Positions 95 to 5,889 of a stretch of DNA of 23,578 bases are shown here, piece by piece. The first letter of the stretch is position 1; every line of letters starts with the position of its first letter. Location of the stretch: the IMG/VR virus record IMGVR_UViG_3300035698_005020, positions 1-23,578 of that record. One strand, 5' to 3'. Source of the DNA: a virus. Below the pieces are notes generated by a model. It did no database searches. It had not been told where the DNA came from and saw nothing but the letters and a program-made list of their open reading frames with translations. The position numbers and the translations under genes are program-made.

Positions 95-463
95 ATGAGC
101 AAGGTAATAGCAACCATAAGAACAAAATCAGCCCAGACAATTGATGGGCCAAAAGGTGAATCAAAACAGGTATATTTTGAGTTGAATCATTGGAGCAGAA
201 ACGGAGAAGCATATCAATCGAATGTAGTTCATTATTGGATTGAAACAGTCGATGAGGTTGATGTTAAACATTATCTAACAAGATTGTTTAATCCTGTTAC
301 AAATATCCCATTCGCAACGGTTAATTATTTGGCACAAATTGTTTCATCGAACGAAACTGATTATGTAGCAAAAGAAACGGAATTATTAAAGCAAGGCTTT
401 TTACTTCAAATCGCTTCCAAGGGTTATTGGGGATTAGATTCGAGTGGATACGAATTTGTATAA
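95..463 (+). CDS. Conserved-looking phage protein of unknown function, 122 aa
   Basis: A 122-residue soluble protein with no signal peptide or membrane segment. The ATG lies one base after the stop of the upstream structural gene (TAAAATG), with an A-rich leader and no Shine-Dalgarno. The sequence alternates polar and aromatic residues (NHWSRNGEAYQ, HYWIE, GYWGL), suggesting a small mixed alpha/beta or beta fold. I recognise no catalytic motif. Its position directly behind a tail/fibre-like gene is compatible with a small virion or tail-assembly protein, but this is only context. It reads without interruption in the dominant strand and frame pattern, so I am confident it is a real gene. Confidence 0.8.
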   Translation: MSKVIATIRTKSAQTIDGPKGESKQVYFELNHWSRNGEAYQSNVVHYWIETVDEVDVKHYLTRLFNPVTNIPFATVNYLAQIVSSNETDYVAKETELLKQGFLLQIASKGYWGLDSSGYEFV

Positions 464-484
464 AACACTAATTAAATAATCAAA

Positions 485-745
485 ATGAAATCAAATCAAC
501 AAGTACAAATCAAAGATTTAACTGACGCTCAGTTAAACGGGGAACAGTTAAATGCATTCAGGAACAGAGAGCATGCTATTTCGGACCAACGACAGCTAAA
601 CGAATCTATTGAAAGTCTTAGTCGGGTAATCGACGCCATCAACATTGAGCTGAATGAGAGGACTAATACCATGGATCAACCTGATTCCGAAACTGAAGGG
701 GGGAATTCGGAAGAAAGGGCTCCTAAGCCGAGAAAGCAATCATGA
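485..745 (+). CDS. Small charged helical protein of unknown function, 86 aa
   Basis: An 86-residue hydrophilic protein. Residues about 10-60 are rich in Gln, Asn, Glu and Leu with a heptad-like pattern (LNESIESLSRVIDAINIEL), so a helix or short coiled coil is likely. The last 25 residues are an acidic, Gly/Ser/Pro tail ending in a basic stretch (PKPRKQS). The start has the AATCAAAATG leader seen before several other genes here. The stop overlaps the next start (ATGA at 742-745), so it is translationally coupled to the cell-wall hydrolase behind it. No family is recognised. Confidence 0.75.
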   Translation: MKSNQQVQIKDLTDAQLNGEQLNAFRNREHAISDQRQLNESIESLSRVIDAINIELNERTNTMDQPDSETEGGNSEERAPKPRKQS

Positions 746-1239
746 AAAAAATTAGTTTCCATTTTTTCGACAAAGACCTATTTGTAACTCAATCCATTGA
801 GAGGCTAACAGGAAGGGGAAACAAATCCCATGTTGTTATAGAATTTGAAGAGGACCACTACTGCATTGAAGCAATAGGTGGTAGAATATTCGGCACAAAT
901 GGTGTTGTATCATCCACAGATCCATTGACGTACCACCAAGGTCGACTAAAACCAAAACACCACTACACTTTATCACTAGAGATTTCCGATGAATTATATC
1001 GCAAATCATTGAATTATGCCAAATCGTGTGAAGGCTATGGATATGGATATGGTGGTATTGCTCCGTTCGTTATTAGATTTTTAAGACCAAGCGGAAAAGG
1101 AAAGTACTGCTCGCAATTGGCGAAAGAGATTTACGAAATAGCAGTTGGGCACAGATTATCTATCGCCCAATCTCCTAACTCATTGTTTGATGTCATTGGA
1201 GCATACATAAAGGGACTTTATAGGGAGCCAGTACGATAA
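742..1239 (+). CDS. Permuted papain-fold (NlpC/P60, YiiX-like) cysteine hydrolase, candidate endolysin
   Basis: A 165-residue protein with the layout of circularly permuted NlpC/P60 (YiiX-like) enzymes. A catalytic His comes early in SHVVIEF (H30), a Glu follows one strand later (CIEA, E43), and the nucleophile lies late in GKYCSQLAKEIYE (C123), in the usual Y-C-S-x-L-x-x-x-x-Y helix context. Family members cut amide bonds in peptidoglycan stem peptides or act on lipids. In a phage cluster with other probable envelope genes, a cell-wall amidase or endopeptidase is the most likely role. There is no signal peptide, so export would need a holin or another route. The ATG overlaps the upstream stop (ATGA), and the stop overlaps the next start by one base. 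The fold assignment is an inference from motifs; substrate unknown. Confidence 0.7.
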   Translation: MKKISFHFFDKDLFVTQSIERLTGRGNKSHVVIEFEEDHYCIEAIGGRIFGTNGVVSSTDPLTYHQGRLKPKHHYTLSLEISDELYRKSLNYAKSCEGYGYGYGGIAPFVIRFLRPSGKGKYCSQLAKEIYEIAVGHRLSIAQSPNSLFDVIGAYIKGLYREPVR

Positions 1240-1658
1240 TGATAGGAAGTAACATCGATTCAATGATAGACACTTTATCGTCGGCACTAAAAACCTCGGT
1301 AACAAAAGCGGACTACATGCCCAACATGTGGGGGCTTTACAAGGATCTATTAGGGAGTGATAATGTTGCATATTTCCAAGTCACGATAGATCACCACGGG
1401 GCTGCGGTATCCAATGTGAGTCCAAATTTTGAAACGGTCACAGGATTGGCTATTGATAAGGTTCTAGGCAGAGACATGAAGGACGTTCCAGGCGCTACTT
1501 ACCCATCAAACGACGAGATATTCAAGCATGTATCTAAGGGGTTGACAGGGATTAAGAATTGGGAATATAATGGAGTAAAATGTACAGGACTTATTTGGAG
1601 AGAATCTTATAATACCTTTGGAGAACTTCTTATAAGAACAAGCGATGCCAATAAGTGA
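1239..1658 (+). CDS. PAS-like domain protein (first of two)
   Basis: A 139-residue soluble protein. From about residue 40 it reads like a PAS fold: a beta strand with a polar turn (YFQVTIDHHGAAVSNVS), a helix with the typical F-x-x-x-T-G-L spacing (NFETVTGLAIDKVLG), then GRDMKD, as in the G-R-x pattern of PAS domains. A weaker C-terminal half (GLIWRESYNTFGELLIRT) sits where the last PAS strands and the RD-type ending usually lie. PAS domains bind small ligands or cofactors (haem, flavin, metabolites) or mediate dimerisation. There is no kinase, cyclase or DNA-binding part, so this would be a stand-alone sensor or adaptor. The ATG overlaps the hydrolase stop (TAATG), and the 3' end overlaps the next gene by 14 bases. 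Fold call is moderate; ligand unknown. Confidence 0.6.
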   Translation: MIGSNIDSMIDTLSSALKTSVTKADYMPNMWGLYKDLLGSDNVAYFQVTIDHHGAAVSNVSPNFETVTGLAIDKVLGRDMKDVPGATYPSNDEIFKHVSKGLTGIKNWEYNGVKCTGLIWRESYNTFGELLIRTSDANK

Positions 1659-1989
1659 GTGGAGTAATGTAATCGACGTACTAAAAAACGCAGGGCTACT
1701 AGGCAGTGGAGGGGTAGCCTACGCTGCTATTAATCGATACTATAAGAGATCTGATAGAAAAAGCGATAAGGAGGATAAAAAGAATGATGACATCGACTCA
1801 TTCTTCCAAATAAAATACGAGGAAGTTCTGAAGGATAATCGAGAATTAACCGATACACTAAGTAAAACACAAATTGCATTAAGCGAATCTGAGCAACTTC
1901 TAAGAGTCGCTTTGACTGTTGTGGATGAAGCAAAAAACACAGACTTAGTGAAACTATTAAGGAATAGAAGTGGAGAAATTAAAGACTGA
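1645..1989 (+). CDS. Small protein with a possible membrane segment and a coiled coil
   Basis: A 114-residue protein in two parts. Residues about 8-32 hold a Gly/Ala-rich, weakly hydrophobic stretch (AGLLGSGGVAYAAINRYY) followed by a strongly charged linker (KRSDRKSDKEDKKNDD). Residues 50-105 have heptad-like spacing (YEEVLKDNRELTDTLSKTQ) and should form a coiled coil. A short N-terminal anchor followed by a basic patch and a coiled coil would suit a membrane-tethered scaffold. It could be a holin-like or accessory lysis protein, but the hydrophobic stretch is too weak to call. It is nested between two PAS-like genes, overlapping the first by 14 bases and the second by 20, so the three are probably made together. 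Confidence 0.65.
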   Translation: MPISEWSNVIDVLKNAGLLGSGGVAYAAINRYYKRSDRKSDKEDKKNDDIDSFFQIKYEEVLKDNRELTDTLSKTQIALSESEQLLRVALTVVDEAKNTDLVKLLRNRSGEIKD

Positions 1990-2371
1990 TGTAGTCGACT
2001 TAGTATTTTCTATTTGTGATTTAGATGTAAATCCCAATTGTTTGTGGGATTTCGAAGGTCGTTTTATTTATTGCAATAAATTATTTGCTGACCTACTGGG
2101 ATATCGGAGAAGAGAAATAATAGGAACCGAGTTTGTTAAATTGATGCATCCAGGAGATGTAAAAAGGAGCATTGATGTGTACGACAGTAACACAGAAAGT
2201 GGAGTTAATCTTGTATATAACTTCTATAATCGTTATTATCGTAAAGACGGAACAGTAATATTCATGTGTTGGTTGAAGGGTTGGAACAATTCTAAATTCA
2301 AAATTGGGGGTGGCCAAGCAAAAGAGGTTACTGAGTCCGAATATAAAAAACAAGGTTTAAATATTGATTGA
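1970..2371 (+). CDS. PAS-domain protein (second of two), stand-alone sensor
   Basis: A 133-residue protein that is almost entirely one PAS domain of the PAS_3 type. The first strands read CLWDFEGRFIYCN, the helix is KLFADLLGYRRREIIG with the classic L-G-Y-x-x-x-E-I-I-G spacing, TEFVKLMHPGD matches the H-P-x-D element, and NFYNRYYRKDGTVIFMCWLKG is the final hairpin with R-x-K-D-G. The only sensible start is a GTG at 1970, 20 bases inside the upstream gene, because the next Met is residue 58, beyond the first half of the fold. No output domain follows; the last 20 residues are a charged tail. Such a protein would sense a ligand or redox state and act through a partner. Cys residues near the strands (C16, C24, C35) could matter for redox sensing, but that is speculative. 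Confidence 0.8.
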   Translation: MEKLKTDVVDLVFSICDLDVNPNCLWDFEGRFIYCNKLFADLLGYRRREIIGTEFVKLMHPGDVKRSIDVYDSNTESGVNLVYNFYNRYYRKDGTVIFMCWLKGWNNSKFKIGGGQAKEVTESEYKKQGLNID

Positions 2372-2372
2372 T

Positions 2373-2957
2373 ATGGATACGAACGTTAAATCATATACGG
2401 ATGTAGAACTTCTCGGAAAGGTAAGTGGATTAGATTCATTCAAAGGAATACCAGAAGATTATTGGATTATTGGCGTCCAGTCTAAAGAGGACGGATTTAA
2501 CATATTCGATGACAAATTTTACCTCTACAAAGGAGTTAAGTTCGTATCCGCAGTTAGTGGAACTACAAATGCAGGAGCATCGGGATTACATGATTTCCAA
2601 CGATATAACGTTAATGGATGTGCGATAATTAAGGCTGACGAATGGTATCACGATCTGTGGTCGCCAGGATACCATAAAGGGAAAATGAAAGCGTTTCGCC
2701 AAGTTTCTCCAATAAAATACTATCGAGACAAGAACAGAAACAACAAGGCCGAGCAAGAAGGTAAGGTTCACGAGGGCATTATTGGAATAAATTTCCATAC
2801 TGCTACATATCTAAATAAACCGGGCTTTATAGCTAGATTTATCGGAGGATGGTCTGTTGGATGCCAAGTGGTCAATAATATTGACGACTATTATTGGATA
2901 CTCGGAATAGTTGGGGATCAAAAAAGGATTTCTTATTGCTTAATAAATGAGTTTTGA
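2373..2957 (+). CDS. YkuD-like (L,D-transpeptidase-type) candidate peptidoglycan enzyme with H...SxGC motif
   Basis: I start this gene at the ATG at 2373, one base after the upstream stop, giving 194 aa; a TTG at 2364 would add only three residues. The C-terminal half carries GINFHTA (H142) and, 19 residues on, WSVGCQV (S161-V-G-C164). This reproduces the His plus S/T-x-G-C nucleophile arrangement of YkuD-like L,D-transpeptidases. Upstream blocks (KGVKFVSAVSGTTNAG, YHDLWSPGYHKGKMKAF, YYRDKNRN) fit a phage family I recall that ends in the same signature. A role in cutting or modifying host peptidoglycan at exit is likely, but catalysis is inferred. There is no signal peptide. The stop overlaps the next start (TTGA). 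Confidence 0.65.
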   Translation: MDTNVKSYTDVELLGKVSGLDSFKGIPEDYWIIGVQSKEDGFNIFDDKFYLYKGVKFVSAVSGTTNAGASGLHDFQRYNVNGCAIIKADEWYHDLWSPGYHKGKMKAFRQVSPIKYYRDKNRNNKAEQEGKVHEGIIGINFHTATYLNKPGFIARFIGGWSVGCQVVNNIDDYYWILGIVGDQKRISYCLINEF

Positions 2958-3175
2958 AAAGGCAAGAGATACTGCAATGGACGCAAATAGTGGGGATAGG
3001 CATATTGATAGGAATCCAAAGCCTAAAGCCGCAAGTGGTTCAACCGTTACCCATAGTAGTCAAGACCGAAAAACAGATAAAACATGAGATTATCGAAAAA
3101 CTTGATAGTGTTGCTCATGCTTCTGATACCGTTACAAGTATTGAGCAAGCAATTGATATACTCAACACCCCCTGA
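2954..3175 (+). CDS. Small membrane protein, candidate inner-membrane spanin partner
   Basis: A 73-residue protein with one N-terminal membrane segment (about residues 9-24, WTQIVGIGILIGIQSL), a Pro/Val-rich stretch, and a charged, probably helical C-terminus (EKQIKHEIIEKLDSV). The start is a TTG whose last two bases form part of the upstream stop (TTGA at 2954-2957); there is no other Met in the protein, so the TTG or a start by coupling is required. N-in/C-out topology, small size and an out-of-frame overlap of 92 bases with the next membrane gene recall the Rz/Rz1 spanin pairs of phages of Gram-negative hosts. The role is inferred from layout only. Confidence 0.55.
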   Translation: MKRQEILQWTQIVGIGILIGIQSLKPQVVQPLPIVVKTEKQIKHEIIEKLDSVAHASDTVTSIEQAIDILNTP

Positions 3176-3407
3176 TACCATTTGTTTTGATACTGCTACC
3201 GTCATACGATGGGCAAAGGAGAAGACGGCAACGAAGAGTCAAGTTGATTACTTGATTGCATCTTTGACTGATGAAATCAAGACGCACTCAATGACAAGGC
3301 TTAAGTTAAATGCAAGCATCACCGAGAATGAAAGACTGAAAGGCGTAGCTCGCAAGCAGATAGTAATTACTGCGATAGTGGGGTTGGTTGTAGGTCTTAT
3401 TATTTGA
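3084..3407 (+). CDS. Secreted/membrane protein with N- and C-terminal hydrophobic segments, candidate spanin
   Basis: A 107-residue protein. Residues 5-21 form a strong hydrophobic signal or anchor (LIVLLMLLIPLQVL) ending in SKQ. The middle is helical and charged (WAKEKTATKSQVDYLI, NASITENERLKGVARK). The last 15 residues are a clear membrane segment (IVITAIVGLVVGLII). A periplasmic helix held by hydrophobic ends at both termini resembles unimolecular spanins, which fuse outer and inner membranes at the end of lysis. However, a lipobox Cys is missing and the only Cys is near residue 34 (DTICFD), so the outer-membrane anchor is not obvious. It begins inside the upstream gene in another frame. 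Bacteroidota phages often carry small DTICF-type proteins like this near their lysis genes. Confidence 0.65.
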   Translation: MRLSKNLIVLLMLLIPLQVLSKQLIYSTPPDTICFDTATVIRWAKEKTATKSQVDYLIASLTDEIKTHSMTRLKLNASITENERLKGVARKQIVITAIVGLVVGLII

Positions 3408-4873: not shown

Positions 4874-5329
4874 ATGAAAAACCTTTTAATGCTACTGTGC
4901 TTAATTCTAGTCACATCAACAGTTAAATCTCAAAGCTCAGAACAAGCAATTCTTCAGGCAGGATTAAATGCTCGAACAGACAACTTCTTTGCAGTTATCG
5001 GACTGCAGAAGATGTTCCGAGAAAAGAACGTAGTAATGGTCGGCCGAGTCAGGTATGGATCCGGGGTCCTATATCGAGAGCGCGAAATCAACGTGCAGTT
5101 CGGAATGGGACTAAAGGTGTCTGATGATGTGGATGTGATTCTGTATCCATTTTGGTTTAATGGAAAGCCTGACGAGGAATCAGAGAATACGCCTACTACA
5201 ATTACTTGTTCGATGCTAATACCTACAACCAAAGAGTCCAGAATCGACTTCGGATTAACTCTAATAAATAATCAAATCAGGCCAACAATAACAGTGGCCA
5301 TAGCTTTAATCAAATTTAATGATTTATGA
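4874..5329 (+). CDS. Secreted protein, probable small outer-membrane beta-barrel, phage-encoded
   Basis: A 151-residue protein with a textbook signal peptide: MK, a hydrophobic core (LLMLLCLILVTSTV), then KSQ followed by SSEQ, the cleavage style of flavobacterial secreted proteins. The mature part is a run of amphipathic strands joined by short charged turns (QAGLNARTDNFFAVIGL, VVMVGRVRYGSG, INVQFGMGLKV, DVILYPFWFNG, TITCSMLIPT, RIDFGLTLINN, PTITVAIALIKF). Seven or eight strands suit a small outer-membrane barrel. A phage could use it to block superinfection or alter the host envelope, but no family is recognised. It sits in a late structural region, with ATGA overlap to the next gene. Reading of the barrel is inference. 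Confidence 0.65.
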   Translation: MKNLLMLLCLILVTSTVKSQSSEQAILQAGLNARTDNFFAVIGLQKMFREKNVVMVGRVRYGSGVLYREREINVQFGMGLKVSDDVDVILYPFWFNGKPDEESENTPTTITCSMLIPTTKESRIDFGLTLINNQIRPTITVAIALIKFNDL

Positions 5330-5889
5330 AATCACCATTTTACTTCATCGCAAAGCCTGTAAACGGTAGGCGATATGATAATCTTAGAGACATAGGCGGT
5401 GTAGAGTTCGTTACTAGTACATCTGAAGAGGACCATTTAGCCTCGAATAGATTTGCGGAGGTTGTAGAGTTGCCAATATCATACAAAGGGCCTGTAAGAA
5501 TAGGAGATATACTGCTCGTGCATCACAATGTATTCAAATTTTACAATGACATGCAGGGGCGAATAAAGAGTGGCAAGAGTTTCTTTCGTGATGACAAATT
5601 CTTTATTGAAAACGACCAATTCTTCATGTATCTAAGTGATGGAGATTGGCATGCTCACGATAGATATTGCTTTGTTGAACCCGCAAAAGCTGAAGAATCA
5701 ATTATATTCAAACCATTTACTGACGAGCCATTGGTGGGAATAATGAGATATCCGAACAAGTACTTAACATCAAAAGGGATAATGCCAGGTACGAAAGTGT
5801 CATATCGTCCCAACAGCGAATATGAGTTTGTTGTTGATGGAGATATACTCTATAGGATTTTTGATCATCAAATCACAATGGCACTATGA
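5326..5889 (+). CDS. GroES-like co-chaperonin candidate with two GroES-type halves
   Basis: A 187-residue protein. Residues about 42-105 (RFAEVVELPISYKGPVRIGD, ILLVHHNVFKFY, then a long loop and a strand) resemble the GroES barrel core, with x-V-x-x-x-P followed by V-x-x-G-D-x-x-x-x-H. A second, shorter half (about 133-187: LVGIMRYPN, GIMPGTKVSYRPNSEYEF, DILYRIFDHQITM) repeats the pattern of G-x-V, a turn with G-x-x-V, and a final strand. Phages of several groups encode GroES-like proteins that help fold the capsid protein with host GroEL; a place just before terminase and capsid genes fits. The match is by pattern only and it is longer than GroES (about 95 aa). Overlaps both neighbours by ATGA. 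Confidence 0.5.
   Translation: MKSPFYFIAKPVNGRRYDNLRDIGGVEFVTSTSEEDHLASNRFAEVVELPISYKGPVRIGDILLVHHNVFKFYNDMQGRIKSGKSFFRDDKFFIENDQFFMYLSDGDWHAHDRYCFVEPAKAEESIIFKPFTDEPLVGIMRYPNKYLTSKGIMPGTKVSYRPNSEYEFVVDGDILYRIFDHQITMAL

Follow-up and report, generated by a model that had tools for sequence, protein, structure and literature searches.

Why does a phage carry two small stand-alone PAS-type genes in its lysis region, and could their products have a part in lysis? The first-pass annotation of this DNA read the gene at 1970 as a clear PAS_3 protein and the gene at 1239 as a weaker one. It suggested that the two might exert a sensory control of lysis, perhaps through the coiled-coil protein encoded between them. 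We refer to these genes as PAS1970 and PAS1239, and call the whole stretch of DNA that was analyzed, a viral record of 23,578 bases, the window.

On its + strand, the window carries a lysis region (about 742-3407), accessory and tail-type genes, a gene of a GroES-annotated family (5326), the terminase gene (6172), and then portal, scaffold, capsid, and tail genes. The host is probably a member of the Bacteroidota, because the terminase resembles those of a Manatee Spring phage (66% identity) and of Flavobacterium, Maribacter, Cellulophaga, and Tenacibaculum phages (32-43%). The protein encoded just upstream of the terminase (5326-5889, + strand) takes its name from its relatives, and it had no match in Pfam. 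Genes of this family, annotated as 'co-chaperonin GroES', lie just 5' of the terminase in many flavophages, and this position is kept among the terminase relatives, where there are 74 matching ORFs (window included). PADLOC returned no match to a defence system.

The lysis region and its genes

The lysis cassette is real and comprises, in order, a hydrolase-like gene (742), PAS1239, the coiled-coil gene (1645), PAS1970, an endolysin-like gene (2373), and two overlapping spanin-like genes. The phage exit cluster proposed in the first-pass annotation is thus borne out, since the neighbours are an endolysin-like gene followed by an overlapping membrane-type pair (2954/3084), a coiled-coil gene of the kind found before endolysins, and a weakly permuted-papain-like gene.

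The endolysin-like protein (2373-2957, + strand; 194 aa from the ATG at 2373) matches the profiles phrog_3000 (8.9e-21) and phrog_33083 'endolysin' (2.2e-10). Its NxH...SxGC motif (N-H-...-[S]x[G/A]C), which we take to be the pattern of L,D-transpeptidase (YkuD)-fold enzymes, is kept in all 75 distinct homologues, and the family looks like an L,D-transpeptidase-type phage lysin. Relatives were seen in L083-L167, crAss002-type and Pseudoalteromonas phages, and are annotated as hypothetical in the latter two groups. Downstream lies a short membrane protein (2954-3175, + strand; hydropathy 1.50 at residues 6-24), a putative inner-membrane spanin in the position of the TM-coil gene that follows the endolysin in locus L088. 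The next gene encodes a signal-peptide/TM protein (3084-3407, + strand; hydropathy 2.15 at residues 7-25), a putative second spanin component that weakly matches its overlapping counterpart in L088 (E=0.031). The two genes overlap by about 90 nt in different frames, and such pairs are also found 3' of the endolysin in phi18:3, phiSM, and L088. They are probably an overlapping spanin pair.

On the other side of the PAS genes, the 165 aa protein at 742-1239 (+ strand) is a candidate permuted-papain (Peptidase_C92/YiiX-like) protein. It has no Pfam match at the reporting level. Among 14 proteins of the window, a Flavobacteriia C92 profile gives it the top score (12 bits vs 3.0 for the next best), with the His of 'SHV' and the Cys of 'YCSQL' aligned, and hhalign to the C92 family gives a score of 29.7 vs a maximum of 18.8 in 40 shuffles. 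By sequence, the protein weakly resembles this family. Of the two probable peptidoglycan enzymes said to enclose the PAS genes, the downstream one stands as endolysin-like; for the upstream one, the label is not supported.

The PAS proteins and the coiled-coil protein between them

PAS1970 (1970-2371, + strand; 133 aa, GTG start) is certainly a PAS domain, complete, with an N-cap helix, a DIT-like 'EVTE', and a short J helix. It passes the cut-offs of three Pfam profiles (PAS_3, E=3.9e-9, 37.1 bits vs a curated cut-off of 25.6; PAS_9, 4e-8; PAS, 4.3e-7) and that of TIGR00229 (E=5.7e-11, 42.6 bits vs 22.9). The AlphaFold2 model (pLDDT 88.6, pTM 0.80) has the canonical secondary structure and full fold of a PAS domain, a five-stranded sheet with helices, and its best match in the PDB is the PAS structure 8px4 (TMt 0.88, rmsd 1.9). 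The PAS_3 pattern first read from the sequence is thereby confirmed, both by profiles and by the comparison with PAS structures that the first-pass annotation had called for. The closest Flavobacteriia matches are PAS domains within large multi-PAS proteins, with open frames that range from about 370 to 2,150 aa, at 39% identity or less. PAS1970 aligns end to end with Flavobacteriia PAS domains, beginning at the N-cap helix and closing with the DIT-like motif, where its 'EVTE' stands opposite 'DITE', and on sequence grounds it belongs to the PAS subclass of these multi-PAS proteins (PAS_3, PF08447 / S-box). It shares with them the fold, the F-x-N-R-Y-x-x-K-D-G-...-W signature, the N-cap helix, and the DIT-like end. 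Unlike them, the phage PAS proteins stand alone, beside lysis genes, and have no kinase, cyclase, or DNA-binding output. As the first reading had it, neither ORF contains an output domain, and that of PAS1970 is the PAS domain alone.

PAS1239 (1239-1658, + strand; 139 aa) is probably a PAS domain, with N-terminal helices followed by a predicted PAS fold that ends near a DIT-like 'TSDANK'. Its profile scores are under the curated cut-offs, both for PAS_9 (0.022, 15.5 bits vs 27) and for TIGR00229 (0.0059, 16.7 vs 22.9). With hhalign, its score to a Flavobacteriia PAS profile is 19.9 vs a maximum of 14.6 in 40 shuffles. The AlphaFold2 model (pLDDT 69.7) has PAS topology, and its top PDB matches listed by Foldseek are PAS or LOV proteins, short LOV/PAS first; since the input alignment was made of PAS rows, the model is not fully independent and gives support rather than proof. 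The weaker PAS pattern seen in this gene is supported by the comparison with shuffles and by the predicted topology, and falls short of the curated thresholds.

Neither protein qualifies as a LOV photoreceptor: the site of the NCRFLQ-type cysteine reads GTEFVKL in PAS1970, without the photoactive cysteine, and GRDMKDV in PAS1239, which also lacks it. Short LOV proteins (PpSB1-LOV, W619_1-LOV), the top structural matches of PAS1239, are likewise small PAS proteins without an output domain; unlike PAS1239 they have the flavin-binding cysteine, and they are not phage lysis genes. Known ligand signatures are absent from the two phage proteins, in which no LOV cysteine or other cofactor motif was identified.

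Between the two lies a coiled-coil-type protein of 114 aa (1645-1989, + strand), a putative membrane partner of the PAS proteins. It has a weakly hydrophobic N-terminal segment, with a borderline hydropathy maximum of 1.02 at residues 9-27, and then six K/R and a charged helix. The overlapping start and stop codons noted in the first pass are as described, and the ORFs lie where it placed them: TAATG at 1239, 14 nt at 1645/1658, and 20 nt at 1970/1989, such that gene 1645 overlaps both PAS genes. In place and make-up it is like L088 4702-4992, phi38:1 gp082, and Gundel gp085, each of which directly precedes an endolysin gene. This likeness is one of make-up, since phmmer found no homology of 1645 to TM-coil genes of the L087/L088 type. 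We also considered whether 1239, 1645, and 1970 could be one broken gene, and set this aside, given that all three ORFs have separate starts and a complete domain apiece, and that the pair layout recurs elsewhere with different orders. XhlA-type lysis proteins (PF10779) also combine a short coiled coil with one TM helix in lysis cassettes. Unlike these, 1645 has no XhlA profile match and carries its hydrophobic segment at the N-terminus, and we know of no PAS partner of XhlA-type proteins.

Distribution of the PAS/TM-coil pair among phages

We scanned viral contigs blindly with respect to gene context, using a DNA pattern for the subclass motif F-x-N-R-Y-x-x-K-D-G followed by a PAS profile filter. 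The scan yielded five further stand-alone viral PAS ORFs from four lineages, namely L245, L267/L277 (the same protein), L250, and L257, all five records having PAS_3 above the cut-off. A short gene for a coiled-coil-type helix and one TM segment overlaps the PAS gene by 4-23 nt in L245, L267/L277, and L250/L295, beside holin-like, lipoprotein/spanin-like, or endolysin genes. The order in L245 is PAS, coil-TM (ATGA overlap), holin-like gene, and lipoprotein. In L267/L277, PAS precedes the coil-TM gene with a 23 nt overlap, and the pair is divergent from genes for a lipoprotein, a membrane protein, and an M15-type endolysin (phrog_17001, 3.8e-66 in L267); the coil-TM partner in L277 has a weak match to XhlA (E=0.0063). 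In L250/L295, the coil-TM gene comes first, with an ATGA overlap, and the divergent genes encode a membrane protein, a lipoprotein, and a homologue (seen in L295) of a phage 'peptidoglycan-binding protein'. The PAS ORF of L257 (10-258) is truncated by the end of the contig, with baseplate-type genes following about 1 kb downstream and no partner gene visible.

A PAS gene overlapping a short TM/coiled-coil gene beside lysis genes is therefore found in four of the four complete lineages, the window included. By the same loose definition, an overlapping TM-coil neighbour is present for around 2% of the 2,299 genes that the examined phage loci contain. This figure is to be taken as a guide only, because the cases were already in view when the definition was drawn up and because lysis loci abound in the gene set. 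The pair thus recurs beside lysis genes in unrelated phages, and both the pairing and its location in lysis cassettes are well supported.

The closest relatives of the window give a different picture. The first-pass annotation had proposed to look among relatives for the same gene order, which was not recovered: none of 100 phage records sharing the terminase (50) or the endolysin (50) has a PAS domain detectable with PAS_3, and none of the 50 sharing the terminase has one detectable with PAS_9. The PAS_3 search works, as the five PAS-bearing viral records all score with it. Searches of phages and viral contigs with PAS1970 and PAS1239, by tblastn and degenerate patterns, gave no match, and host PAS queries retrieved only Aer/MCP-type or unannotated matches in the phage collection. 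Region 95-3400 as a whole has no counterpart in the terminase relatives. Hence, the PAS genes are a recent or variable add-on and no fixed part of the terminase or endolysin lineage. They must also be dispensable, since the closest relatives do without them.

A further parallel came from structure. Against a viral structure library (Foldseek), the PAS1970 model matched phi19:1 gp108 (E=1.8e-4) and phi18:3 gp090 (E=1.1e-2), the library entries being assigned to gp108 (240 aa) and gp090 (172 aa) through phage name and protein length. Both proteins, which are related to each other, have an N-terminal TM segment, a charged helix, and a PAS-like domain. The gene of gp090 lies two genes before the endolysin. 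Like that of the window, its cassette precedes the terminase, and the two terminases are related (490 bits). The phiSM homologue of gp090 overlaps the endolysin gene, and the family is also present in Ingeline; gp108 is encoded among holin-like and lysozyme genes. These matches suggest that a single-chain TM-coil-PAS-like form exists near the endolysin in cultured Cellulophaga phages. The PAS label of the two proteins comes from structure, since sequence profiles made no PAS call. In addition, the charge pattern suggests that their PAS-like domain is periplasmic, the opposite of the split proteins PAS1970 and PAS1239, which are predicted to be cytoplasmic from their lack of a signal. For both reasons, we regard gp090 and gp108 as a parallel and not as proof of homology. 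A viral scan with the gp090 family retrieved nothing beyond the known Cellulophaga phages and their near copies. TM-coil-PAS-like proteins of phrog_10199/phrog_31932 ('unknown function') were seen in the lysis regions of Cellulophaga phages that belong to different families (L279 39102-39620, L280 8203-8925, and L282 3911-4546).

Possible roles in lysis

The proposed link through the coiled-coil protein gains from these comparisons, given the gene overlaps in three unrelated phages and the single chains near Cellulophaga endolysins. We hold it probable that the PAS proteins pair with 1645. The fuller reading that we favour is tentative, and we put it at a little under even chances: PAS1970, and probably PAS1239, would be small cytoplasmic domains with a sensor or adaptor role, produced in step with 1645 and docked on its coiled coil, so that the lysis cassette would encode a membrane-associated sensor in split form. 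The PAS pocket would read a signal of cell state (a ligand, redox, or energy), and the sensor would speed up or delay lysis by holin, endolysin, and spanins according to it. Physical docking, ligand sensing, and the effect on lysis time are steps that we infer. What counts against this reading is that PAS is missing from the closest relatives, that the hydrophobic segment of 1645 is weak, that the single-chain proteins are called PAS from structure and have a charge pattern pointing to the periplasm, and that known ligand signatures are absent.

The first of these points, taken alone, would favour accidental cargo. In that case the PAS genes would be small accessory genes that came by chance into a hypervariable slot before the terminase and have no lysis role, as the 100 related records without PAS and the lack of a counterpart to region 95-3400 might suggest. 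We consider it quite improbable, since a PAS gene with an overlapping TM-coil gene recurs beside lysis genes in phages that were found blindly to context. That recurrence, in four unrelated lineages, is also what would be left unexplained if the PAS proteins were captured host sensor domains that pair with the PAS domains found in host sensor kinases, whose output would be blocked or diverted; their position among lysis genes would then reflect late expression only. PAS domains do dimerise, and PAS1970 belongs to the subclass of the large multi-domain Flavobacteriia proteins, with which it shares up to 39% identity, and keeps the DIT-like end; even so, such a decoy seems unlikely to us.

PAS folds can also act as dimerisation modules, and the proteins might serve as a ligand-independent interaction fold that assembles or anchors a complex of holin, coil, and endolysin without any sensing. 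The single chains beside endolysins would suit such an adaptor, as would the lack of a LOV cysteine or other cofactor motif. Yet the model gives PAS1970 its full fold, and a single coil is flanked by PAS proteins of two kinds, more than a mere scaffold should require. We think this role, too, has a low probability.

The split sensor, which we prefer, would have one classical precedent in outline. The phage T4 antiholin RI, which acts in lysis inhibition, is a membrane-near sensor protein that sets lysis time from an environmental cue (PMC11413866, PMC6832632). A TM anchor followed by a periplasmic domain would be common to RI and the single-chain Cellulophaga proteins, whereas PAS1970 and PAS1239 have no membrane anchor of their own. 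To our knowledge, RI is not a PAS protein. The first-pass annotation knew of no such phage system, and our search agrees, as none was found in open-access texts: that literature yielded no case in which PAS domains and TM-coil lysis proteins are combined with sensory control of lysis (as in T4 RI, PMC11413866), although all three are known separately.

With the PAS/TM-coil pairing present in three further, unrelated phages, it may be that certain phages gauge the condition of the host cell ahead of lysis. A broader idea, which we regard as rather doubtful, is that several unrelated lineages independently built ligand-gated lysis timers, with a PAS sensor on a membrane coiled coil, split or in a single chain (Cellulophaga), that reads host metabolism. 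A PAS sensor in lysis is testable, as there are culturable Cellulophaga phages that seemingly have the single-chain form (phi18:3, phi19:1, phiSM, Ingeline, and Nekkels). Accounts of lysis timing usually centre on the holin as a clock, and few sensory inputs to it are known, the classical case being lysis inhibition of the T4 type. With a PAS sensor built into the lysis cassette, phage release would be set by the metabolic state of the host, and ligand-gated PAS timers, if true, would be a class of phage decision-making apart from T4-type lysis inhibition and arbitrium-type signalling.
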